A stretch of DNA of 64,000 nucleotides, from contig NZ_JAAAMJ010000001.1 of NCBI RefSeq assembly GCF_010500835.1, forward strand, positions 372,001 through 436,000. The letters run 5' to 3'. The notes beneath the pieces were generated by a model. It worked only from the letters and a program-made list of their open reading frames with translations. It did not search any database and was not told the origin of the DNA. This DNA comes from Aurantimonas aggregata (GTDB taxonomy: Bacteria > Pseudomonadota > Alphaproteobacteria > Rhizobiales > Rhizobiaceae). The position numbers and the translations under genes are program-made. Positions within the stretch are counted from its first letter, which is position 1. Each line of letters begins with the position of its first letter. Of the stretch, positions 2 to 11,336 are shown in pieces.

Positions 2-481
2 CTGCTCCTGATCCTGGTCTTCGCCCTGTCGCTCGGCCTGCTGCCGGCCGCAGGCCATAGCGATGCGATCCACTTCGTGCTGCCTTCGGTAACGCTGGCG
101 CTCGGCCTCGCCGCCATCTCGTCCCGCGTCGCCCGCGACGCGACAGCGGAGGTGGTCGCGGCGCCCTTCTATGCCTTCGCCCGGCTCAAGGGCCTGCCGG
201 AGCGCCAGCTCTTTCCGCGCCACGGCCTGCGCAACGTCTCGGTGCCGGTCGTCACCTATCTGGGTGTCCAGCTCGTCATGCTCATCGAGGGCGTGGTGGT
301 GGTGGAGACGCTGTTCGCCTGGCCCGGCATCGGTCACGCCCTCGTCCACGCCATCGTCCAGCGCGACCTGCCGATGGTGCAGGGAACCGCACTGGCCATG
401 GGGCTGATGTTCGTCGTCCTCAACGCCGTCGTCGACATCGTCAACGCGCAACTGGATCCGCGCGCAAGGAGCGCCGCATGA
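2..481 (+). CDS. ABC transporter permease, DppB/NikB type (5' end cut off)
   Basis: This is the C-terminal 159 residues of an inner-membrane permease of the dipeptide/nickel ABC importer family. The reading frame is open from base 2, so the N-terminus lies outside the window. Visible features are hydrophobic membrane segments and the EAA-like cytoplasmic loop (A-R-L-K-G-L-P near residue 60) that contacts the ATPase. The C-terminus ends in the DPRAR pattern common to this family. Its stop codon overlaps the next gene's start (ATGA at 478-481), so it is the first visible gene of a permease-permease-ATPase operon. The substrate cannot be read from a permease fragment. The zinc genes directly downstream make a chelated metal a reasonable guess, and a peptide is the alternative. 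Confidence 0.85.
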   Translation: MLLILVFALSLGLLPAAGHSDAIHFVLPSVTLALGLAAISSRVARDATAEVVAAPFYAFARLKGLPERQLFPRHGLRNVSVPVVTYLGVQLVMLIEGVVVVETLFAWPGIGHALVHAIVQRDLPMVQGTALAMGLMFVVLNAVVDIVNAQLDPRARSAA

Positions 482-1296
482 GCCTCGCCGAAATCCTTCC
501 GGCTACCCCGGACCAGCCGCGACGGCTGCCCCATGTCGGGGCAGCGCTGCTCCTCCTGCTGGTGCTCTTCGCCGTCCTCGCACCGATCCTCGCGTCGAGC
601 GATCCGGCACGTCAGGACTACGGGGCGATCCTCTCAGGGCCAAGCCAGGCGCATCCGTTCGGCACCGACCATCTCGGGCGCGACATGTTCGCCCGGCTCG
701 GCGCAGCCCTTCGGCTTTCGCTCGGCCTCGCGGTGCTTAGCGTGCTGACCGCGGGTATTCCCGGTACGCTACTCGGCATTCTCGCCGCCTGGAAGGGCGG
801 GTGGATCGATCGGCCGCTGTCGATCGTGGCGGACGTTTTCCTGTCCCTGCCGGGGCTGCTTCTCGTGCTGCTGATCAGCGCGATCTTCCCGGGCTCCTTT
901 CTCGCCATCTACGGCGCGATCTCGCTGGTCCTGTGGATCGAGTATTTCCGCATCACACGGGCGACTTCGCGCGCGATCCTCGCCTCGCCGGCCGTCGAGG
1001 CCTCGCGTCTCCTCGGCTTCGGCCCGGCCTACATCGTCCGGCACCATCTCTGGCCGGAGCTTTCGCCGGTCATCCTCACTGTCGGCGCATTCGGCGCGGC
1101 GACGGCGATCATGGCGGTGGCGGCGCTCGGCTTCGTCTCGGTCGGCCTCAGGCCCCCCACCGCCGAACTCGGCCTGATGATGACGGAACTGCTGCCCTAT
1201 TACGCCGAGGCACCCGGTGTGCTGCTCCAGCCGATCCTGGCGGTGTTCCTGCTCGTCCTGTCCCTCAACCTCCTTGCAGGATACCGCGCCCGATGA
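478..1296 (+). CDS. ABC transporter permease, DppC/NikC type
   Basis: A 272-residue second permease of the dipeptide/nickel ABC family. The N-terminal region has the OppC-type opening: one membrane helix near residues 20-40, then the HPFGTDHLGRD motif near residue 60 that precedes the transmembrane domain. Several further hydrophobic helices follow. The EAA-type loop is around residues 165-185 (SRLLGFGPAYIVRHH). Start and stop overlap the neighbours by 4 nt on both sides, so translation is probably coupled with the upstream permease and the downstream ATPase. Length is normal for the family. Nickel, peptide or metallophore uptake are all possible. Confidence 0.88.
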   Translation: MSLAEILPATPDQPRRLPHVGAALLLLLVLFAVLAPILASSDPARQDYGAILSGPSQAHPFGTDHLGRDMFARLGAALRLSLGLAVLSVLTAGIPGTLLGILAAWKGGWIDRPLSIVADVFLSLPGLLLVLLISAIFPGSFLAIYGAISLVLWIEYFRITRATSRAILASPAVEASRLLGFGPAYIVRHHLWPELSPVILTVGAFGAATAIMAVAALGFVSVGLRPPTAELGLMMTELLPYYAEAPGVLLQPILAVFLLVLSLNLLAGYRAR

Positions 1297-2732
1297 ATCC
1301 GGTCCTCACTATCGAAGCGGTATCGGTGCACGCCGGATCGCAGCGCATCGTCGCGCCGACCAGTCTCGCGCTGGTCCCGGGGCGGCCGCTCACCATCATC
1401 GGCGAGACCGGATCGGGAAAGAGCCTCCTCGCGCAGGCCATCGTCGGCAATCTGCCGGACGGGCTGTCGGCCGAGGGACACGTCACGATCGGCGACGTCT
1501 CGGAGGATGCGGGTGCCTCCGGCCGCCATGCGCTCTGGGGACGCGGCATCACCGTGCTCCCGCAGGAGCCATGGCTGAGCCTCGATCCGACCATGCGTGC
1601 GCTGCCGCAGGTCGCCGAGACGCACCAGTTCGTCGCTGGGCTCGGCGACGCGGAGGCGGACCGGGCGGCGGCCGATGGTCTCGCCGGCGTCGGCCTGTCG
1701 GAAGCGGGTGCGAAGTATCCGTTCCAGCTTTCCGGCGGCATGGCGCAGCGCCTTGCGTTCGTCGTGGCGCGGGCCGGTGGCGCGCCGATCGTCATCGCCG
1801 ACGAGCCGACCAAGGGCCTCGACGCGGCCCGGATCGGCGAGGTCGTGGATCTCCTGCGCAAGGGCCTGGCGGATGGCGGCGCGCTGCTGACCATCACCCA
1901 CGATGTCGAAGTGGCGCGGCGCCTGGGCGGCGAGGTAGCGATCATGCTGAAGGGCGAGATCGTCGAGCGCGGCGAAGCGGATCTCGTGCTGACGGCGCCG
2001 CAGCACGAATACACCCGGATGCTGCTCGCCGCCGATCCGCGCCATTGGCCAACACGAAGTCCGGCAGATCCCTCAGTGGCGACGGAAGGAAACGTTCTTG
2101 CGTTGCGCGACGTATCCGCCTCGCGCGGTGGCCGCACCCTGTTTTCCGGCCTCTCATTGGCGGTGGGTCCCGGCGAGATCGTCGGGCTCACGGGCCCGAG
2201 CGGCTGCGGGAAGTCGACCCTCGGCGACGTGGCGCTCGGGCTGGTCCGCGCGGATGCGGGCATGGTGCAGCGTCAAGCCAGCCTGCCGCCCGCCGCTTTC
2301 CAGAAGCTCTACCAGGACCCCGTCGCGGCCTTCCCGCCGCGCCGGACGCTCCGCCGCACCCTTGGCGACCTCGCCGCGCTGCATCGGCTGGATGCGTCGA
2401 AGATTCCTGAACTCATGAAGCGCCTGCGCCTCTATCCGGCGCTGCTCGATCGCCGTCCCGGCCAAGTCTCCGGCGGGGAGCTCCAGCGCTTCTCGCTCCT
2501 GCGGGTACTGCTCCTCAAGCCGGCGCTGATCGTCGCGGACGAGCCAAGCTCGCGTCTCGATCTCGTCACTCAGAAGGAGATGATCGAACTGATCGTCGAC
2601 GCAGCGGACCGGGACGGCTGCGCGATCATCCTGATCAGCCACGACGAGGCCTTGGTCGACGCGGTGGCCGATCGTCGAATCCGGCTGGACGGCGACGTCT
2701 CGGTCAGAGAGCCGGACCGTCAATCCGCCTGA
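1293..2732 (+). CDS. Fused ABC transporter ATPase, DppD-DppF type
   Basis: A 479-residue protein with two complete ABC ATPase domains, equivalent to a fusion of DppD and DppF. Domain 1 has Walker A GETGSGKS (residues 37-44), signature LSGGM and Walker B IVIADEP. Domain 2 has Walker A GPSGCGKST (about residue 300), signature VSGGE and Walker B LIVADEP. I chose the ATG at 1293 because it overlaps the stop of the permease (ATGA) and begins directly before the first ABC domain. The same frame is open further upstream, but only as a shadow of the permease gene. It powers the importer encoded by the two preceding permeases. No substrate-binding protein is seen downstream, so it must lie before the window. 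Confidence 0.88.
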   Translation: MNPVLTIEAVSVHAGSQRIVAPTSLALVPGRPLTIIGETGSGKSLLAQAIVGNLPDGLSAEGHVTIGDVSEDAGASGRHALWGRGITVLPQEPWLSLDPTMRALPQVAETHQFVAGLGDAEADRAAADGLAGVGLSEAGAKYPFQLSGGMAQRLAFVVARAGGAPIVIADEPTKGLDAARIGEVVDLLRKGLADGGALLTITHDVEVARRLGGEVAIMLKGEIVERGEADLVLTAPQHEYTRMLLAADPRHWPTRSPADPSVATEGNVLALRDVSASRGGRTLFSGLSLAVGPGEIVGLTGPSGCGKSTLGDVALGLVRADAGMVQRQASLPPAAFQKLYQDPVAAFPPRRTLRRTLGDLAALHRLDASKIPELMKRLRLYPALLDRRPGQVSGGELQRFSLLRVLLLKPALIVADEPSSRLDLVTQKEMIELIVDAADRDGCAIILISHDEALVDAVADRRIRLDGDVSVREPDRQSA

Positions 2733-2934: not shown

Positions 2935-3081
2935 ATGACCGCCTTTCAAAGCCCAAGCGTGCCCAATCCGCGCCGCTCTTCCGCCCTGCGTCAGTCGGCT
3001 TCCCAGCGGCTGACGCTGGCAGCGATCCCCATCGTCTTCCTGTGGCTCGCGGTCGCCTTCGCGCTGGATCTCTTCGCATGA
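2935..3081 (+). CDS. Small single-span membrane protein (48 aa), first gene of the zinc operon
   Basis: A 48-codon reading frame begins at an ATG preceded by a good Shine-Dalgarno sequence (GGAGAAG at about 2921-2927). It ends in an ATGA overlap with the start of the zinc ATPase at 3078. Residues 1-26 are polar and basic, with several Arg. Residues 27-47 form one hydrophobic segment rich in Ala, Leu, Val, Ile and Phe. The predicted product is therefore a membrane-anchored peptide with a short basic cytoplasmic tail. It lies directly behind the putative Zur-controlled promoter. I do not recognise a family. It could be an accessory subunit of the importer, or a leader peptide that couples translation of the ATPase. 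Confidence 0.6.
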   Translation: MTAFQSPSVPNPRRSSALRQSASQRLTLAAIPIVFLWLAVAFALDLFA

Positions 3082-3848
3082 ACTCGACCGTGAGCATGCC
3101 TGTCGTCCGCCTCGACGACCTGACCCTCGCCTACCGCCGCCATCCGGCCGTCCACCACGTCACCGGCAGCTTCCCGGGTGGCTCGCTGACGGCGATCGTA
3201 GGACCGAACGGCGCCGGCAAGTCGACGCTCCTGAAGGGCATCATGGGCCTGCTCCCGCCTTCGGAAGGCCGGGTCCATCTCGGCGGCGTGCGCCGCCGCG
3301 ATATCGCCTATCTGCCGCAGGCCAGCGAACTCGACAGATCCTTCCCCGTCAGCGTGACCGATCTCGTCTCGCTGGGTGCGTGGCGCGAGGCGGGCATCTT
3401 CGGCCGCATCAAGGGCAAAGCACTCGATCGTGTCTTCGAGGCGATAGAGGCGGTCGGGCTGAGCGGTTTCGAGGACCGCATCATCGGCACCCTCTCCGGC
3501 GGGCAGCTCCAGCGCGCGCTCTTCGCCAGGGTGCTCGTCCAGGATTCGCGCCTGCTGCTGCTCGACGAGCCATTCACCGCCATCGACACGCGCACCGTGC
3601 TCGACCTGCTCGCCATCGTCCGCCGCTGGCACGGCGAGAGGCGCACCGTCATCGCCGTTCTCCACGACATGGATCTGGTGCGAGAGCACTTCCCGCAAAC
3701 GCTTCTCATCGCCCGCGAACTGGTCGGCTGGGGCGAAACAGACGACGTGCTTCGGCCCGAGCGGCTGAAGGAGGCCCGGGCGCTGAGCGAGACGTGGAAC
3801 GAGGATCCGCATTTCGGGGCTCCCCGCGGCGCAAGGAGGGCTGCATGA
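3078..3848 (+). CDS. Zinc/manganese ABC transporter ATPase (ZnuC/AztA-like)
   Basis: A 256-residue ATPase of the cluster-9 metal importer family, which powers high-affinity zinc or manganese uptake. Walker A GPNGAGKST is near residue 45, the signature LSGGQ near 140 and Walker B LLLLDEP near 160, followed by the H-loop in VLHDMD. The start at 3078 is chosen because it overlaps the stop of the small membrane protein. An in-frame upstream start at 3042 would read through that gene. The permease follows with a 4-nt overlap. Zinc rather than manganese is favoured by the downstream Zur-like regulator, the His-rich binding protein and the COG0523 genes. Confidence 0.88.
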   Translation: MNSTVSMPVVRLDDLTLAYRRHPAVHHVTGSFPGGSLTAIVGPNGAGKSTLLKGIMGLLPPSEGRVHLGGVRRRDIAYLPQASELDRSFPVSVTDLVSLGAWREAGIFGRIKGKALDRVFEAIEAVGLSGFEDRIIGTLSGGQLQRALFARVLVQDSRLLLLDEPFTAIDTRTVLDLLAIVRRWHGERRTVIAVLHDMDLVREHFPQTLLIARELVGWGETDDVLRPERLKEARALSETWNEDPHFGAPRGARRAA

Positions 3849-4729
3849 CCCTGATTGCCGCCGCATTCGACTACGCCGTCGCGCCGTTCCTCGACTATGG
3901 CTTCATGCGCCGCGCGCTCGTCGGATGTCTTGCCCTCTCCTTAGGCGCCTGCCCGCTGGGCGTGCTTCTCGTCCTGAGGCGCATGAGCCTCGTCGGCGAC
4001 GCTATGAGCCACGCGATCCTGCCGGGTGCCGCAGTGGGCTTCCTGCTCGCCGGCTTCTCGCTCTTCGCCATGACGGTCGGCAGCCTGGCCACCGGTCTGG
4101 CAGTGGCGGTGCTGGCCGGGCTCGTCTCGCGCTTCACGCCGCTCCGGGAGGACGCGAGCTTCGCGGCCTTCTACCTCTCATCGCTCGGGCTCGGCGTGAT
4201 GCTCGTCTCAGTGCACGGCTCGAACATCGACCTCCTGCACGTCCTCTTCGGCACCGTGCTGGCCCTGAACGATCCCGCCGTGTTGCTGATGGCGACGATC
4301 GCCACGGTCACCATGGCGGCGCTCTCCCTCCTCTACCGCCCGCTGATCGCCGAATGCCTCGACCCGGGGTTCCTGCGGTCGGTCGGCGGTGGCGGCGGGA
4401 TCGTCCACATGCTGTTCGTGACGCTCGTCGTCCTGAACCTCGTCGGCGGCTTCCAGGCGCTCGGCACGCTGATGGTCGTCGGCATCATGATGCTGCCGGC
4501 AGCGTCCTCGCGCTTCTGGGCCGAGACGGTGCCTGGCCAGATGGCCGTCTCCGCGGCGATCGGCCTTGCCGCCGCGATGGTCGGGCTCCTCGTATCCTAC
4601 CACCACGACCTGCCCGCCTCGCCGGCGATCATCCTGTCGGCGAGCGCGGTCTACGCCGTCTCGGTCCTGCTCGGGCGCTTCGACAGCGTCGCCGCGCGGG
4701 CCGTTCTCCGCCCCCACTACCATCACTGA
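3845..4729 (+). CDS. Zinc/manganese ABC transporter permease (ZnuB/AztB-like)
   Basis: A 294-residue ABC-3 family permease with about eight hydrophobic segments. It carries the family's typical RRMSLVGDAMSHAILPG stretch after the second helix (about residues 45-61), which contains the cytoplasmic coupling region. The tail ends in RPHYHH, a short His cluster. ATGA overlap with the ATPase gene at 3845-3848 and a short gap of 19 nt to the binding-protein gene mark one operon. It forms the inner-membrane channel for the metal delivered by the periplasmic protein encoded next. Confidence 0.88.
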   Translation: MTLIAAAFDYAVAPFLDYGFMRRALVGCLALSLGACPLGVLLVLRRMSLVGDAMSHAILPGAAVGFLLAGFSLFAMTVGSLATGLAVAVLAGLVSRFTPLREDASFAAFYLSSLGLGVMLVSVHGSNIDLLHVLFGTVLALNDPAVLLMATIATVTMAALSLLYRPLIAECLDPGFLRSVGGGGGIVHMLFVTLVVLNLVGGFQALGTLMVVGIMMLPAASSRFWAETVPGQMAVSAAIGLAAAMVGLLVSYHHDLPASPAIILSASAVYAVSVLLGRFDSVAARAVLRPHYHH

Positions 4730-4748: not shown

Positions 4749-5744
4749 ATGCGTTTCCGCACTAAGATACTGACACTCTCGCTCGGCGCCTCCCTGATCG
4801 CCCTCGCCTCGCAGGGGAGCGCGCAGGAACAGGTCAAGGTCGTCGCCTCCTTCTCCATCCTCGGCGACATGGTCGAGCAGATCGGCGGCGATCACGTCGC
4901 GCTGACGACGCTCGTGGGCCCCGACGGCGACGCCCATGTCTACGAGCCGACGCCGTCCGACGCACGCGCCGTCGGCGCTGCGGACGTCCTCGTCGTTAAC
5001 GGTTTGCAGTTTGAGGGCTGGCTTCCGCGCCTCGTGGATACGGCGGAGTTCAAGGGCGAGGAGATCGTCGCCACCACCGGCATCGAGCCGATCCCCTTCG
5101 CAGAAGAGGAAGAGGGCCACGATCACGCCGCGGGCGAACATGCGGGAGCCGGCCATGAGGATCATGCCCACGAGGCGGGCGAAGCCGCCGGGCACGAGGG
5201 CCACGATCACGGTGCGAACGACCCGCATGCCTGGCAGAGCCTGTCGAACGGCGTCGTCTATGCCGAGAACATTGTCAAAGGTCTGGTGGCCGCCGATCCT
5301 GACAACGCCGCCGACTACCGCGCCAGGGGCGACGCCTATATCGGCGAGATGAAGGCGATGGACGAAAGGGTGAAGACCGAACTCGCCGCCATTCCCGAGG
5401 ACCGGCGCAAGGTGGTGACCTCGCACGACGCCTTCGGCTATTTCGCCAAGGCCTACGATGTCACCTTCATCGCTCCGGAGGGTGTCTCGACCGAAGCCGA
5501 AGCCTCGGCAGCCGATGTCGCCAAGATCATCGACCAGATCAGGCACGACGGCATCTCCGCGGTGTTCGTCGAGAACATCAGCGACACGCGGCTAGTCGAC
5601 CGTATCGCGGCGGAGACCGACGCCAAGGTCGGCGGCACGCTCTACTCCGACGCGCTGTCGGGCGAGGACGGCCCCGCCCCGACCTATCTCGACATGTTCC
5701 AGCACAACATCGAGCAGATCGTCGCCGCGCTGAAGACGAGCTGA
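4749..5744 (+). CDS. Periplasmic zinc-binding protein (ZnuA/AztC-like) with His-rich loop
   Basis: A 331-residue cluster-9 substrate-binding protein. A signal peptide covers about residues 1-25 and ends in QGSAQ. After the first domain there is an acidic, histidine-rich loop at about residues 117-156 with repeated HDH, HEDHAH and HDHG. This loop is typical of zinc-specific ZnuA proteins and absent from manganese ones. Conserved metal-ligand histidines are visible in AHVYEP and NDPHAW and in TSHDAFGYF. The start is supported by AAAGGA 8 nt upstream. The protein captures zinc in the periplasm and hands it to the permease encoded just before. Confidence 0.9.
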   Translation: MRFRTKILTLSLGASLIALASQGSAQEQVKVVASFSILGDMVEQIGGDHVALTTLVGPDGDAHVYEPTPSDARAVGAADVLVVNGLQFEGWLPRLVDTAEFKGEEIVATTGIEPIPFAEEEEGHDHAAGEHAGAGHEDHAHEAGEAAGHEGHDHGANDPHAWQSLSNGVVYAENIVKGLVAADPDNAADYRARGDAYIGEMKAMDERVKTELAAIPEDRRKVVTSHDAFGYFAKAYDVTFIAPEGVSTEAEASAADVAKIIDQIRHDGISAVFVENISDTRLVDRIAAETDAKVGGTLYSDALSGEDGPAPTYLDMFQHNIEQIVAALKTS

Positions 5745-5817: not shown

Positions 5818-6231
5818 ATGGGACGATTGATGGACACCCTGCGCAATCACGAGCGCGTCTACCAGGTGCTCAAGGCGGCCCGCACGCCGCTCTCGGCCTA
5901 CGCGCTTCTGGCAGCACTACGTGGCCAGGGGATCACCGCGCCGCTGACGGTGTACCGCGCCCTCGAACGGCTGGTGCTGGAGGGGCGCGTGCATTGCCTC
6001 GAATCCCTCAAGGCATACGTCGTCTGCCGTCACCCGAGCGAACATGCCGGCGGGAGCGCCGTCTTCGCGATCTGCCGGGATTGCGGGGTTGCCGAGGAAC
6101 TCGTCCAGCCGGCGGCCTTTGCTAGGCTGCGCGAGGCGGGAGAGCGGCACGGCTTTGCCACCGACGAAGCCTCGATCGAGTTGAGGGGCTATTGCGCCGC
6201 CTGCCGGGAAAGGGCGGACGCGCATGTCTGA
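5818..6231 (+). CDS. zur: Fur-family regulator, probable Zur
   Basis: A 137-residue Fur-family protein. The N-terminal winged helix covers about residues 1-80 (TVYRALERLVLEGRVHCLES is the recognition region). The C-terminal dimerisation domain contains a CRDC pair near residue 88 and a CAAC pair near 129, the structural zinc site found in Fur/Zur proteins. The ATG at 5818 is chosen for its AGGA 5 nt upstream. Longer in-frame starts read through the hairpin. Its place inside a zinc uptake operon, downstream of a Zur-box-like site and overlapping a COG0523 gene (6224), supports zinc sensing and autoregulation. A general Fur role is less likely. Confidence 0.85.
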   Translation: MGRLMDTLRNHERVYQVLKAARTPLSAYALLAALRGQGITAPLTVYRALERLVLEGRVHCLESLKAYVVCRHPSEHAGGSAVFAICRDCGVAEELVQPAAFARLREAGERHGFATDEASIELRGYCAACRERADAHV

Positions 6232-7450
6232 CCACGTCCCCGTCACCATCCTCACCGGCTTCCTCGGCTCCGGAAAGACGACGCTCCTCAACGCGCTCCT
6301 CTGCGACCCTGCCTTCGCCGACACGGCCGTTATCGTCAACGAGTTCGGCGACATCTCGATCGACCATGATCTCGTCCAGGTCGGCAAAAAGGAGATGATG
6401 GTGACGACGACCGGATGCCTTTGCTGCACGATTGGCAGCGACATCCGGTCATCGCTCGCCGAACTCCTCGACGCGTCGCGCAGCGGCGCCGTTCCTTCGT
6501 TCTCCCGGGTCATCGTCGAGACCACCGGCCTTGCCGATCCCGCGCCCGTCATCAACCAGATCGTTCCGGGCGGCGCGCCGGCCATGGGCCTTCGCGACCA
6601 CGGCGTCGGCCGAACGTTCACTTTAGCCGGCGTCGTCTGCACCATCGACATCGTCACCGCCGAGGCGACGATCGAGCGCTATTTCGAGGCGATGAAGCAG
6701 GTCGCCTTCGCCGACCGCATCGTCCTCACCAAGACTGACCTGGCACGCGACCCGGCGAGCCTGGCGGATATCGATCTGCTCCGCCAGAGGCTGCGGGAGC
6801 TGAATCCTTCGGCCACGCTTCTCGATCGCAACGAGGGCGGTTTCGACCTCGCGGGGGTATTTGCCCCCCGGAGCTATGCGCCGCACGACGTCGGCCCGGA
6901 CGTCGAGGGCTGGCTCGCGCTCGAACAGGCGCTGTCCGCGGAAGCGGCGAGCGGAGCCGCCCATGCCAACGTCGCGCGACACGGCGACGGCGGCATCCTG
7001 ACCTCCTGCCTGATCGCGGACCGCCCGATCGGCGCGAAGGACCTCGACGCCTTCTTCCTCGTGCTGAAGGCGGCGGCCAGCATCCGGCTCCTGCGCCTCA
7101 AGGGCCTCATATGCCTCGAGGACGATCCCGAGCGGCCGCTCGTCGTCCACTGCGTGCAGCATGCGGTTCATCCCCCGAATCGCCTCGATGCTTGGCCCTC
7201 GGACGACCGCCGGACGCGCATCGTGGCAATCACCCACGACATCGACCCCAAGGCGCTTCGCCAGCTCTTCGATGCCGTCACCGGCGAGAAGAAGCCGCTG
7301 CGCGTGGCCCCTGCCGCCGCCCTGGCCGGGATCATCCTGGCCGTCGCCCTCGTCGGCGTCGGCCTCGTCTTCACCGCCAGTTCCCTCGCCGGCGCCGAGC
7401 GGCCCGGCGTCGAGCTTCCCGTCAACCTTTCCGCGACACACGCCCCCTGA
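6224..7450 (+). CDS. COG0523 (CobW-type) GTPase with a C-terminal membrane segment
   Basis: A 408-residue G3E GTPase of the COG0523 metallochaperone family. Walker [10 protein letters not shown] is at about residues 12-20, the metal-binding CxCC motif (GCLCC) at about 64-68 and the base-recognition motif TKTD near 170. The CobW C-terminal domain follows. Unusually, after about residue 360 there is a hydrophobic stretch of roughly 22 residues ([18 protein letters not shown] and beyond) that looks like a membrane anchor, with a 25-residue tail. Members of this family move zinc to client proteins under zinc starvation. The gene overlaps zur by 8 nt and is followed by a second COG0523 gene. Confidence 0.85.
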
Positions 7451-7461
7451 TGGAGACCACC

Positions 7462-8442
7462 ATGTCCGCTTCCCCTTCGCCGTCCACGCAGACTCCCGTC
7501 ACCGTCCTCACCGGCTATCTCGGCGCCGGCAAAACGACGCTGCTCAACCGCATCCTCACCGAGGCGCACGGCAAGCGCTACGCCGTGATCGTCAACGAGT
7601 TCGGCGAGACCGGCATCGACAACGACCTCGTGGTCGATGCCGACGAGGAAATCTTCGAGATGAACAACGGCTGCATCTGCTGCACCGTGCGCGGCGATCT
7701 GATCCGCATCGTCAGCGGCCTGATGCGCCGGCCGGACCGCTTCGATGGCATCATCATCGAGACCACGGGCCTTGCAGACCCGGCCCCCGTCGCCCAGACC
7801 TTCTTCGTTGACGAGGACGTCCGGGCAAAGACCCGGCTCGATGCGATCGTGACCGTGGTCGATGCCGTCCATCTTCTCGGCGCGATTGAGGAGGCGCATG
7901 AGGCGCAGGAACAGTTGGCGTTCGCCGACGTGATCCTCCTCAACAAGACCGACCTGGTCGACGAGGCGCAGCTTGCCGAAGTGGAAGCGCGCATTCGCCG
8001 GATCAATCCATATGCGAAGATCCACCGCACCAGCCGCTGCGGGATCGACCTCGCCGAGGTGCTGGGCCGCGAAGCCTTCAGCCTCGACCGCGTGCTCGAG
8101 GTCGAGCCCGACTTCCTCGACCATTTCCACGAGCACGAGCACGACGACGCGGTGACCAGCCTGTCGCTCCTGTCGGACACGCCAATGGATCCGGGCAAGC
8201 TCCTGCCCTGGCTCCAGGACGTCACGCAGCGCTATGGCCTTGAGATCCTGCGGATGAAGGGCATCCTGTCGATGCAGGACGACGACGACCGCTTCGTCGT
8301 GCAGGGCGTCCACATGCTGCTGGAAGGCGACCACCAGCGCCCCTGGAAGGACGGGGAGCGGCGCCAGAGTCGCCTGGTCTTCATCGGCCGCGACCTGCCA
8401 AGGGAAATCCTCAGCCAGGGCTTCGAGTCGTGCCGCGCCTGA
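7462..8442 (+). CDS. COG0523 (CobW-type) GTPase, second copy
   Basis: A 326-residue COG0523 GTPase without a membrane tail. Walker [10 protein letters not shown] is near residue 19, the CxCC metal site (NGCICC) near 70, [10 protein letters not shown] near 95, NKTD near 150, and an acidic/His stretch (FHEHEHDD) near 220. The CobW C-terminal domain is complete. I start at 7462 because GGAGACC lies just upstream. An ATG at 7450 overlapping the previous stop is the alternative and adds four residues. It is closer to the usual zinc-responsive COG0523 proteins than its neighbour. The WD40 gene begins in a TGATG overlap at its end. Confidence 0.87.
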
Positions 8443-9479
8443 TGCAGGCCGCGCGTCCGGCACCGATGGGCGAAGCGCCGCTGGCGCAGCACATCGGCCA
8501 GGAAGTGGCGACGGGCGCGCATGTCTCAGCCGTCCGCTTCATCTCTGGCGCGATGGCCGCGGCGCTCGGCGACGGCACAGTCAGGTTCTGGGAGCCCGGT
8601 GTCCCGGAGCCCGAAAGCATCGTCGCGCATTCCGGCCCGATCCTTGCCGTGGCGACGCATGCCGAGGCGGGTACGATCCTGACCGGCGGCGACGACGGCC
8701 TTGTCTGCCGGGTCGGACTCTCCGGCGCCCATCCGGTGGCAGAGACCGGCGGCAAATGGGTGGATGCGGTCGCAGCCGCGCCATGGGGCGGCATCGCCTT
8801 CTCCTCCGGCAAGGCGGTCACGGCGATCCGGAGCGACGGGACGCGGCGGGAGATCGCCACAAACTCAACCGTCCAGGGTCTCGCCTTCGCGCCGAAGGGC
8901 CGCAGCCTCGCCATTGCCCATTACGGCGGAGTGACGCTCGCCGATATGCAGGCCAAACCGTCGGCGAACCGCTTGCTGGCGTGGATGGGCTCTCACATCG
9001 CCGTGAGCTTCAGCCCGAACGGTCGGTACGTCGTCTCGGCGATGAACGAGAACGTCCTGCATGGCTGGCGGATCGAGGACGGGGCCGACATGCGGATGAG
9101 CGGCTACCCCTCGAAGCCGCGATCGCTGTCTTGGTCGCCGGGCGGTGCCTGGCTCGCCACCTCCGGTGCCGACTGCGCCGTGCTCTGGCCATTCCGGGGA
9201 AAGCAAGGGCCGATGGGCAAGCAGGCGACACCGATCGCCTTCGCGCAGGCGCTGGTCACGGCGGTGAGCTGCCATCCGGTGAGCGACGCGGTGGCCGTCG
9301 GCTATGCCGACGGCGCTGTCGTCTTCGCCCGCCGCGGCGACGACGCCGTCATCCCCGTACGGGCAGCGGACGGGGACCGCATCACCGATCTGGGCTTCGA
9401 CGCCGGCGGTCATCTCTTCGGCTACGGGACGGAGGGCGGCAGGCTCGGTCTCCTGGATCTGCGGGGCATCGGGCGATGA
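8442..9479 (+). CDS. WD40-repeat protein of the zinc operon
   Basis: A 345-residue cytoplasmic beta-propeller protein. Recurrent blades show the WD40 pattern (for example ALGDGTVRFW, LTGGDDGLVCRV and ISFSPNGRYVVSA-like stretches). No signal peptide is visible. The start at 8442 is chosen for its TGATG overlap with the COG0523 stop. A GTG at 8430 in the same frame is possible. WD40 proteins are recurrent neighbours of COG0523 genes in alphaproteobacteria, so it may be a scaffold or client in zinc allocation. The function is not established from the sequence. Confidence 0.8.
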   Translation: MQAARPAPMGEAPLAQHIGQEVATGAHVSAVRFISGAMAAALGDGTVRFWEPGVPEPESIVAHSGPILAVATHAEAGTILTGGDDGLVCRVGLSGAHPVAETGGKWVDAVAAAPWGGIAFSSGKAVTAIRSDGTRREIATNSTVQGLAFAPKGRSLAIAHYGGVTLADMQAKPSANRLLAWMGSHIAVSFSPNGRYVVSAMNENVLHGWRIEDGADMRMSGYPSKPRSLSWSPGGAWLATSGADCAVLWPFRGKQGPMGKQATPIAFAQALVTAVSCHPVSDAVAVGYADGAVVFARRGDDAVIPVRAADGDRITDLGFDAGGHLFGYGTEGGRLGLLDLRGIGR

Positions 9480-9757
9480 GCGGCTTCGTCAATCCGCTCG
9501 CCCGCAGGCAGAAGCCGGGTTATCCAGAGGCCGTCGCCGCGCTCAAGGCCGAGACGCGGCGGCTGCTCGATCTCTCCGACGACGTCGCCGTCTCCGTCAC
9601 CGAACTCACCTGCCGCGACCTGGACTGCCCCGATATCGAGACGGTGATCGGTATCCTCGTCGCCGGCACCGCGCCGCGCATCGCCAAAATCCACAAGACC
9701 GTTCCGGAGGTCACGCCCGCCGATCTCGCCGCGGCCTTTGCCGCGGGCAAGCTGTGA
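9476..9757 (+). CDS. Small conserved protein with a C-x4-C motif, end of the zinc operon
   Basis: A 93-residue protein with the core TELTCRDLDCPDIETVIGIL at about residues 42-61. The two cysteines spaced by four residues could bind a metal. The rest is helix-prone and charged. The start overlaps the WD40 stop (ATGA at 9476-9479), so it is translated with the zinc genes. I do not recognise an assigned function. It closes the run of genes that starts at 2935. A role as small metal carrier or partner of the COG0523 GTPases is inference from context. Confidence 0.7.
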   Translation: MSGFVNPLARRQKPGYPEAVAALKAETRRLLDLSDDVAVSVTELTCRDLDCPDIETVIGILVAGTAPRIAKIHKTVPEVTPADLAAAFAAGKL

Positions 9758-10017: not shown

Positions 10018-10980
10018 CTATGCAGCCCCTGCCTGGACCTCGACTTCCACGGTGAGGTGGGAGAGATCGTGGATGTGGGCCACCTTGGCCCGATAGGCTT
10101 CCAGAGGACGGGCATGCGCGGTCGCTATCGACACGATGGCCGCGTGGTGGCCGGGGCCGACCTGCCAGACATGGAGATCGGCGATGCGGTCCCCGTCGGC
10201 CTCGATCGCCTGGCGGATTTCGTCGGGCAGGTCTTCGCCTTCCGGGACATAGTCGAGAAGCACCGCCCCGGCATCCCGCGCCAGCCCCCATGACCAGCGC
10301 GCGATGACGAGGGCGCCGACGATGCCTATGACCGGGTCCAGCCAGATCCAGCCATAAACGCTGCCAAGGCTGAGTGCTGCGATGGCAAGTATGGAGGTCA
10401 GGGCATCGGCAAGGACATGCAGGTAGGCGGCGCGGAGATTATTGTCGCCGCCTCCGGCAATAGCCGCGCGATGATCATGATGAGCGTGATCGTGACCAGG
10501 GTGATGGTGATCGTCCCTTAGAAGCCATGCGCTTGCGAGGTTTACCGCAAGTCCGACAATCGCCACCGAGATCGCCTCCCCGAACGAGATGGGCACGGGC
10601 GACGCAAGGCGCAGGAAGCTTTCGTAGGCGATGAGGAGTGCAACCAAAGCCAGGATGACCGCACTGGCGAACGCTGCGAGATCCCCGATCTTGCCTGTCC
10701 CGAACGTGAAGCGGGAGTTATGGGCGTGCTTGCGGGCGAAGACGTAGGCGCCGACGGTGATCAGCATAGCCGCGGCGTGCGTCGACATGTGGAGCCCGTC
10801 CGCGACCAGGGCCATGGAGCCGTAGATCGTCCCCGCCACGATCTCAATCACCATCATGGAAACGGTAAGCGCTATCACGAGCCAGACGCGGCGCTCGTTC
10901 CGGCTGTGGGCGTCCCCCAAGAAGACGTGACCGTGTGGCGTGCCATGGGTCGGCAGAGCCGGCGTCTCCCCCGTCGTCAT
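10018..10980 (-). CDS. dmeF: Cation diffusion facilitator DmeF (Co/Ni efflux)
   Basis: A 320-residue cation-diffusion-facilitator exporter. About six membrane segments are visible, the motif ADGLHMSTHA is in helix II (around residues 60-70), and a second helix motif HVLADALTS is near 190. Between helices IV and V there is a histidine-rich cytoplasmic loop with DDHHHPGHDHAHHDH (about 155-169). The N-terminus is also His-containing (HGTPHGHVFLGDAH). These features match DmeF, which exports cobalt and nickel. The gene is translated from an ATG overlapping the stop of dmeR, so both are on one transcript and relieved by Co or Ni. Confidence 0.9.
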   Translation of the reverse strand: MTTGETPALPTHGTPHGHVFLGDAHSRNERRVWLVIALTVSMMVIEIVAGTIYGSMALVADGLHMSTHAAAMLITVGAYVFARKHAHNSRFTFGTGKIGDLAAFASAVILALVALLIAYESFLRLASPVPISFGEAISVAIVGLAVNLASAWLLRDDHHHPGHDHAHHDHRAAIAGGGDNNLRAAYLHVLADALTSILAIAALSLGSVYGWIWLDPVIGIVGALVIARWSWGLARDAGAVLLDYVPEGEDLPDEIRQAIEADGDRIADLHVWQVGPGHHAAIVSIATAHARPLEAYRAKVAHIHDLSHLTVEVEVQAGAA

Positions 10981-11255
10981 TTCAGGTAGGTCCGCACGAC
11001 CGCGATCAAGTCCGCCGCGCCCTTGGCCTTCTCCGGGTCATCCTCATGCTCGGGGTCGACCACATGGTTTCGCACGTGCTCTTCGATCAGTTCGATCGTA
11101 AGGCCATTCACAGCGCCGCGGACGGAAGCGACGAGCTGGAGGACGTCGCCGCACGGAGCGTCGTTTTCGAGGCTACGGACGATCGCCTCCAGTTGTCCCT
11201 GGAGCCGACGGATCCGGGCGACGAGTTTCGCGGAATTGTTCGGGAGATGCGCCAT
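10977..11255 (-). CDS. dmeR: Metal-sensing repressor DmeR (RcnR/CsoR family)
   Basis: A 92-residue all-helical RcnR/CsoR-family repressor. With the start at 11255, the ligand set His3, Cys35, His60 and His64 falls exactly at the positions of the RcnR Ni/Co fingerprint. This both fixes the start and argues for nickel/cobalt rather than copper sensing. An upstream in-frame start would add 25 unrelated residues and displace His3. The ATGA overlap with dmeF and the flanking operator candidate at 11259-11275 support an autoregulated dmeRF operon. Confidence 0.9.
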   Translation of the reverse strand: MAHLPNNSAKLVARIRRLQGQLEAIVRSLENDAPCGDVLQLVASVRGAVNGLTIELIEEHVRNHVVDPEHEDDPEKAKGAADLIAVVRTYLK

Positions 11256-11258
11256 AGC

Positions 11259-11275
11259 ATAGCTACCTACCCTAT
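11259..11275 (-). promoter_or_regulatory. Candidate DmeR operator
   Basis: On the plus strand the site reads ATAGCTACCTACCCTAT: ATAG and CTAT arms around a C-rich core. RcnR-family repressors recognise a G/C tract flanked by A/T-containing inverted repeats, and the known rhizobial dmeRF operator has the same plan. The site lies only 4 bp before the dmeR start codon, so binding would block expression. Inferred from pattern and position. Confidence 0.55.
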
Positions 11276-11336
11276 TTTGGACGCTGCGGCTAGTGATCGA
11301 TAACAGCCAGCTTGACTCTACAGCCGACATGTAACA

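Follow-up and report, generated by a model that had tools for sequence, protein, structure and literature searches.

A COG0523 GTPase with a transmembrane-like C-terminal tail in a zinc operon of Aurantimonas aggregata

A zinc operon of Aurantimonas aggregata encodes a COG0523 GTPase, here called cob1, that carries a transmembrane-like tail beyond a complete soluble core. The window, meaning the whole 64,000-nucleotide stretch of DNA that was analysed, places this gene behind AztABC-like zinc importer genes and a Zur-like regulator, and directly before a second COG0523 gene without a tail, cob2. Within our searches the tail is confined to one clade. From its sequence, cob1 is apparently a membrane-anchored variant of a known family, and the tail is a real and unusual feature. 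We consider the anchoring itself very probable on hydropathy. The full explanation, a C-tail-anchored inner-membrane COG0523 GTPase that would handle zinc at the membrane, is the reading towards which we lean.

The cob1 protein and its tail

cob1 consists of a two-domain core followed by a long C-terminal extension.

6224..7450, + strand: cob1, COG0523 GTPase with a C-terminal transmembrane-like tail; open reading frame from ATG to TGA, 408 residues
6224..7279, + strand: soluble core of cob1, residues 1–352, from Pfam domains and sequence
7280..7447, + strand: tail of cob1, residues 353–408 (56 residues), beyond CobW_C
7313..7375, + strand: predicted transmembrane segment of cob1, residues 364–384; 19-residue Kyte-Doolittle (KD) mean of 2.72 at 365–383, preceded by KKPLR

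Pfam places cobW (PF02492, 1.2e-40) at residues 6–199 and CobW_C (PF07683) at residues 265–352, with the tail falling wholly outside the latter. A Walker A motif (GFLGSGKT) and a CxCC motif (GCLCC, residues 64–68) are present, in agreement with the canonical GTPase and CxCC site that an earlier note on this DNA had read in the frame. Both hallmarks of a COG0523 (G3E) protein, a cobW domain with Walker A and CxCC and a CobW_C domain, are thus found in cob1. Metal binding and GTP hydrolysis are putative, following from the family assignment by domains. The NCBIfam ZigA equivalog (NF038288) scored 97.2 bits, below its cut-off of 600. A frame error or assembly artefact as the source of the tail was ruled out by the Aurantimonas endophytica gene, which has identical frame and length in a separately sequenced genome.

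The hydrophobic stretch that the earlier note had placed near residues 360–382 is real, its best 19-residue window lying slightly downstream, at 365–383. The naive sum over these residues on the Hessa scale is −2.2. No charged residue occurs within 361–391, and KKPLR lies directly N-terminal of the segment. Measured with the same window, the segment exceeds the helices of the operon's own AztB-like permease (1.77–2.33) and the best helix of a CDF transporter (2.62). AztA, Zur, cob2, the WD40 protein and the 93-residue protein all scored at most 1.37, and AztC 1.42. The best window in the cob1 core, 1.60, is located inside the GTPase domain. None of 5,858 random 55-codon stretches without stops, drawn at the G+C of the window, had a KD of 2.5 or more, nor did any of 653 overlapping off-frame 55-residue windows from six coding stretches. 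By hydropathy only, cob1 therefore has what defines a C-tail-anchored protein, a single C-terminal transmembrane segment with nothing comparable elsewhere; every transmembrane-like call in this work is made on hydropathy scales. The membrane anchor proposed in the earlier note fares accordingly: a tail outside CobW_C that is transmembrane-like by hydropathy and recurs in divergent orthologues is borne out, and the anchoring is a prediction.

Foldseek's best match to the cob1 model was YjiA (E 1.8e-19). E. coli YjiA (1NIJ, 4IXM, 4IXN), the only PDB sequence match, resembles cob1 in GTPase fold and CxCC, by sequence (residues 5–304) as well as by fold, but unlike cob1 it ends at 318 residues without a tail. 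The AlphaFold model, built from five window and related sequences, has a mean pLDDT of 57.9 and a low-confidence helix at 362–379; searches of viral contigs for a deeper alignment gave one relative and none, respectively. Since pLDDT is below 50 across 356–408, the model speaks neither for nor against a segment packed inside the CobW C-terminal domain, the check that the earlier note had proposed.

An ordinary COG0523 tail was also considered as the identity of the cob1 tail and rejected. The commonest long tails seen, of a 'DRPD..NPLA' type, are hydrophilic, and 60 of them have a median lipid-binding score of −0.58 (windows with internal proline skipped).

Distribution and descent of the tail

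The best named match to cob1, from A. endophytica, is 95% identical across all 408 residues and has the same tail. Another family contributes further transmembrane-like tails: two of its genera have orthologues with such an extension, at 52% and about 60% identity to cob1. One gene, seen in loci L105 and L148, is 59% identical over its aligned part and has a tail KD of 2.59. The other, L150, is 52% identical with a tail KD of 2.94, and its part after the transmembrane segment is not conserved. L178 and L179 carry nearly the same tail as L105; the open frame of L179 is cut short at its 5' end. Among 177 distinct COG0523 reading frames (at least 200 residues, complete in their locus, BLASTP E at most 1e-15, loci from at most 30 matches per search), the tail window reached a KD of at least 1.6 in four: the window protein and those of A. 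endophytica, L105/L148 and L150. Transmembrane-like tails thus persist in proteins that differ from cob1 at about 40–48% of aligned positions.

Matches to cob1 were counted across several overlapping sets of genomes, the window's own genome included. They occur in 45 of 60 relatives at E up to 1e-30 and in 39 of 397 genomes of the order at E up to 1e-80. At E up to 1e-85 the counts are 43 of 394 genomes for the family, 18 of 385 for the class and 68 of 149 for the family of G582, one of the genomes with a transmembrane-tailed gene. In the genus of G582, the source of L178 and L179, 3 of 60 genomes match at E up to 1e-110, G582 included. Only G1232 itself has a match among the 18 genomes of its genus, and 2 of the 8 window-genus genomes among the 60 relatives have a close match.

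A phylum-wide draw yielded no transmembrane-like tail at any of 90 sampled CobW_C places, where the longest tail was 33 residues. This survey covered 160 genomes, 54 of which held 146 CobW_C places; the 90 comprise 30 fetched loci and 60 chosen going down the list, with the window gene's own place left out and some places overlapping genes from the other searches. The comparison of COG0523 relatives that the earlier note had called for finds a transmembrane-like tail in divergent orthologues and in none of the survey sample. Among the papers listed by our literature searches, none has a title or abstract opening that reports a transmembrane tail on a bacterial COG0523 protein.

A further 21 orthologues, 44–58% identical to cob1 and including those of Phyllobacterium zundukense (L041) and Mesorhizobium huakuii (L100), have charged tails of 25–47 residues after the core. 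Their KD is at most 1.08, meaning no transmembrane segment, and their net charge is +1 to +8. Hydrophobic moments are mostly high, and most of these tails are predicted to be amphipathic, a label assigned automatically at a moment of 0.45 or more. Compared with shuffled versions of each tail, the moment was higher at p < 0.05 for 12 of the 21 on the Eisenberg scale and for 16 on the Fauchère–Pliska scale, and the helix lipid-binding score exceeded 0.68 in all 21 and 1.34 in 15. These tests are not independent, because the moment served to assign the label and the tails come from related sequences. Such features predict that the charged-tail relatives may bind the membrane peripherally.

Trees of the cores, computed with the tails removed, separate the two kinds of tail. 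In the careful tree, built from 48 rows (every row with a transmembrane or amphipathic label, L178 and 21 hand-picked others), the five transmembrane rows and L149 form one clade (98/94) and the 21 charged-tail rows another (98/95). Both group with the short-tailed rows L040, L114 and L117 (99/92), and the two clades and these three rows meet in a three-way fork, so a single origin of the C-terminal extension does not follow from the tree. A quick tree of 118 rows, 116 of the 177 reading frames (at least 262 bits) plus two outgroup rows, joined the transmembrane and charged-tail groups with an SH-aLRT of 86. L179 is in neither tree, and L103, automatically labelled amphipathic, was removed from the charged group in the careful tree because of its position among short-tailed rows in the quick one. 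L149 has a short, non-transmembrane tail of 23 residues and pairs with L150 inside the transmembrane clade (99/95); most simply, L149 lost the transmembrane tail, or else L150 acquired one of its own.

The case for selection on the tail is indirect and lies in hydrophobicity retained over deep divergence. Between the window and A. endophytica, 4 synonymous and 8 nonsynonymous changes fall in the tail, distributed 4/4/4 over codon positions, and omega is about 0.84 in the tail versus 0.055 in the core (tail pN 0.068 and pS 0.08; core pN 0.017 and pS 0.26). Residues 364–384 differ by two changes only, L to M and V to I; a transmembrane helix tolerates swaps among hydrophobic residues. The tails of G582 and G1326 differ by 2 synonymous and 3 nonsynonymous changes. 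Codon-level testing in these close pairs detected no clear purifying selection on the tail; with an omega near 0.84 and few changes, they yield no evidence of residue-level constraint.

The synonymous rate offers a separate observation. For the window and A. endophytica it is 0.080 in the tail (7280–7447), lower than the 0.260 of the core, and 5 of 353 windows are as low, on small numbers. For G582 and G1326 it is 0.043 versus 0.092, an unremarkable value reached by 107 of 364 windows. Core rates from two L179 pairs were unusable, the truncated open frame being out of register at its start.

The zinc operon and its neighbours

The genes around cob1 run in one direction, in an order that is identical in A. 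endophytica.

3078..3848, + strand: AztA-like ATPase; NF040873 220.7 bits, just over its cut-off of 220
3845..4729, + strand: AztB-like permease; NF040871 262.5 bits, under its cut-off of 280
4749..5744, + strand: AztC-like zinc-binding protein; NF040870 320 bits, under its cut-off of 350; Pfam ZnuA 4e-89
5830..6231, + strand: Fur/Zur-family regulator; 3' end overlaps the cob1 start
7462..8442, + strand: cob2, second COG0523 protein, 326 residues, without tail or transmembrane segment
8430..9479, + strand: WD40 beta-propeller protein; the A. endophytica, G1232 and G1201 loci have it next to cob2 as well
9476..9757, + strand: 93-residue protein without a Pfam or NCBIfam match; beside cob1/cob2 in many loci

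The AztA-like frame is open from a GTG at 3042, with an ATG at 3078. The regulator is Zur-like, scoring 18.8 bits with Pfam FUR (cut-off 23.1) and 69.9 with its best NCBIfam model, Zur PRK11639 (cut-off 167). An in-frame ATG of cob2 at 7450 overlaps the cob1 stop.

cob2 is 97–98% identical in A. endophytica and 66–76% in the other measured loci beside cob1, and no cob2 row seen extends more than 14 residues past the core. It adjoins the tailed gene in 11 of the 21 charged-tail rows. A tail-less cob2 stands beside a tailed cob1 in several loci, which makes this a repeated arrangement. The earlier note's soluble second copy next door is upheld in that cob2 lacks a transmembrane-like segment (KD at most 1.37), and we infer the division of labour that it suggested between the two. 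A match to the 93-residue protein adjoins cob1/cob2 in 22 of the 37 loci of one set and in 12 of 12 of another, at 38–57% identity outside A. endophytica. Two plasmid records label a similar-sized gene beside a COG0523 pair 'nitrate reductase'.

Linkage to azt genes varies. In G1232 and the non-transmembrane G1201 the order is zur-cob1-cob2-WD40-small, without azt genes; in G582, G1326 and G1345 it is cob1-cob2-small, again without azt genes and without zur, bar a weak match about 6.6 kb off in G1326. Just ahead of its cob1, G582 has genes for a TonB receptor and a PepSY_TM protein. No aztABC lies within about 7–9 kb either side of the transmembrane-tailed gene in G582, G1326, G1345 and G1232, four of the five other genomes with such a gene. 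The short-tailed rows L081, L082, L085 and L096, too, adjoin azt genes, so being next to azt genes is not enough to predict a transmembrane-like tail; many short tails are basic. An AztB-like permease was found in all 13 genomes checked (best E 1e-68 or better in each), including G582, G1326, G1345 and G1232, where it lies away from the tailed gene, and six window-genus members without cob1. All 13, the window's own included, fall below the model's cut-off, and at E up to 1e-20 the model also matches in 11 of 14 control genomes, so the search is not specific and shows only the presence of a zinc-type ABC permease. Gene adjacency to azt is not the rule, and proximity at the membrane is possible.

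A candidate Zur box, GTAATTTTATAAC, lies at 2778–2790, about 290 bases upstream of aztA. It is an AT-rich near-palindrome with one mismatch to a Zur motif. Its statistics are weak: a scan allowing up to two mismatches found 4 sites (two overlapping) versus 1.70 expected, and 10 of 100 shuffles had as many.

Other metal-related genes surround the operon. A 48-residue reading frame (2935–3081, +) has one transmembrane-like segment (KD 2.52), no Pfam match and a stop that overlaps the AztA ATG at 3078. A counterpart precedes aztA in A. endophytica (69% identity). Weaker matches sit immediately in front of aztA in two loci, L040 (E 0.004) and L066 (E 0.36), and others lie close to AztB-like genes, in L190 (E 3e-4) and L194–L196 (E about 0.03). 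The frame may encode a small membrane protein, so far unannotated, that works with azt importers. Dipeptide/nickel-type ABC transporter genes at 77–2732 (+) come immediately before the zinc operon. By analogy with the Zur-regulated cluster C (dipeptide-type) transporter that shares an operon with a COG0523 gene in Paracoccus denitrificans (PMC5387054), this transporter may import a zinc complex. Downstream, on the opposite strand (10018–11330, −), genes for a CDF cation efflux protein and a metal-sensitive repressor may form a unit for metal export next to the import cluster.

The arrangement has known counterparts. COG0523 proteins are described in PMC5387054 as metal-regulated GTPases, and their CxCC in PMC9010474 as a putative metal-binding motif. 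Zur-regulated members often adjoin znuABC and zur, according to PMC2770081. Such ZigA/YciC-type proteins likewise sit beside zur and a zinc ABC importer; they differ from cob1, which reaches 97 bits against the 600 of the ZigA model, and the 90 surveyed CobW_C places hold no tail like its own. In P. denitrificans, aztABCD, the Zur-regulated COG0523 gene pden1338 and a cluster C transporter belong to one zinc response (PMC5387054); the gene order differs from that of the window, and the portion of that paper seen does not mention membrane attachment. The diatom COG0523 protein ZCRP-A lies near a membrane, the ER, when tagged, but it is eukaryotic, and the corresponding portion of PMC9010474 describes no anchor in it and gives ZCRP-B as the single-transmembrane protein.

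Proposed zinc handling at the membrane

We propose that cob1 works as a membrane-held zinc GTPase. Its GTPase and CobW_C domains would face the cytoplasm, and one helix (about 364–384) would cross the inner membrane; KKPLR would stay on the cytoplasmic side, and the short end would reach the periplasm. Under zinc starvation the tail would hold the GTPase at the membrane, where the CxCC could take up zinc arriving through AztABC or another importer. GTP hydrolysis would then accompany its release, either to clients at the membrane or to cob2 as a soluble partner. The import-side hand-off is plausible, though we hold it with reserve: azt adjacency in Aurantimonas favours capture on the import side over delivery to clients, and the lack of azt genes beside the tailed gene in four other genomes weakens it.

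Those same four genomes count in favour of a client-side role. Here the membrane-held GTPase would supply zinc to metalloenzymes of the membrane or envelope that face the cytoplasm, such as FtsH-like proteases, rather than receive it from an importer. The TonB receptor and PepSY_TM neighbours in G582 fit this account, as do the reported links of Acinetobacter COG0523 proteins to envelope processes (MigC with MurD, ZigA with SltB). Both Aurantimonas genomes, however, have the gene behind importer genes, and no client gene was noticed nearby in stretches searched with the window's own gene set; we regard delivery to clients as fairly unlikely.

The two other alternatives question the tail rather than its partner. 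It could be a near-neutral extension, hydrophobic by accident and with no zinc-handling role, as the omega of the Aurantimonas pair, the scarcity of changes in the G582 group and the shortened tail of L149 would allow. Yet hydrophobicity is kept at 40–48% divergence from cob1, and chance stretches in both simulations were never as hydrophobic, which makes an accident improbable. The segment might instead pack on the protein or between dimer subunits without crossing a membrane; its helix is rich in alanine and glycine, and AlphaFold draws it without confidence. Against such packing, the segment comes after a complete CobW_C domain, YjiA offers no room for such a tail, and cob1 has a 31-residue uncharged run, unusual for a soluble helix. 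We judge this quite improbable.

A membrane-anchored, zinc-handling cob1 bears on how cytoplasmic proteins receive the zinc that an ABC importer brings in, and on the physical role of COG0523 GTPases. Our widest proposal, which we regard as doubtful, is that a Hyphomicrobiales branch of zinc-cluster COG0523 GTPases sits at the inner membrane, attached at the same place by a transmembrane or a cationic amphipathic anchor, and, with cob2 and the 93-residue protein, links the entry of zinc to its distribution in the cytoplasm. The tail-anchored-looking cob1, its soluble sister and the charged-tail clade are natural material for testing the tail's effect on zinc distribution. If this widest proposal is true, COG0523 proteins would be the missing cytoplasmic receivers of imported zinc.
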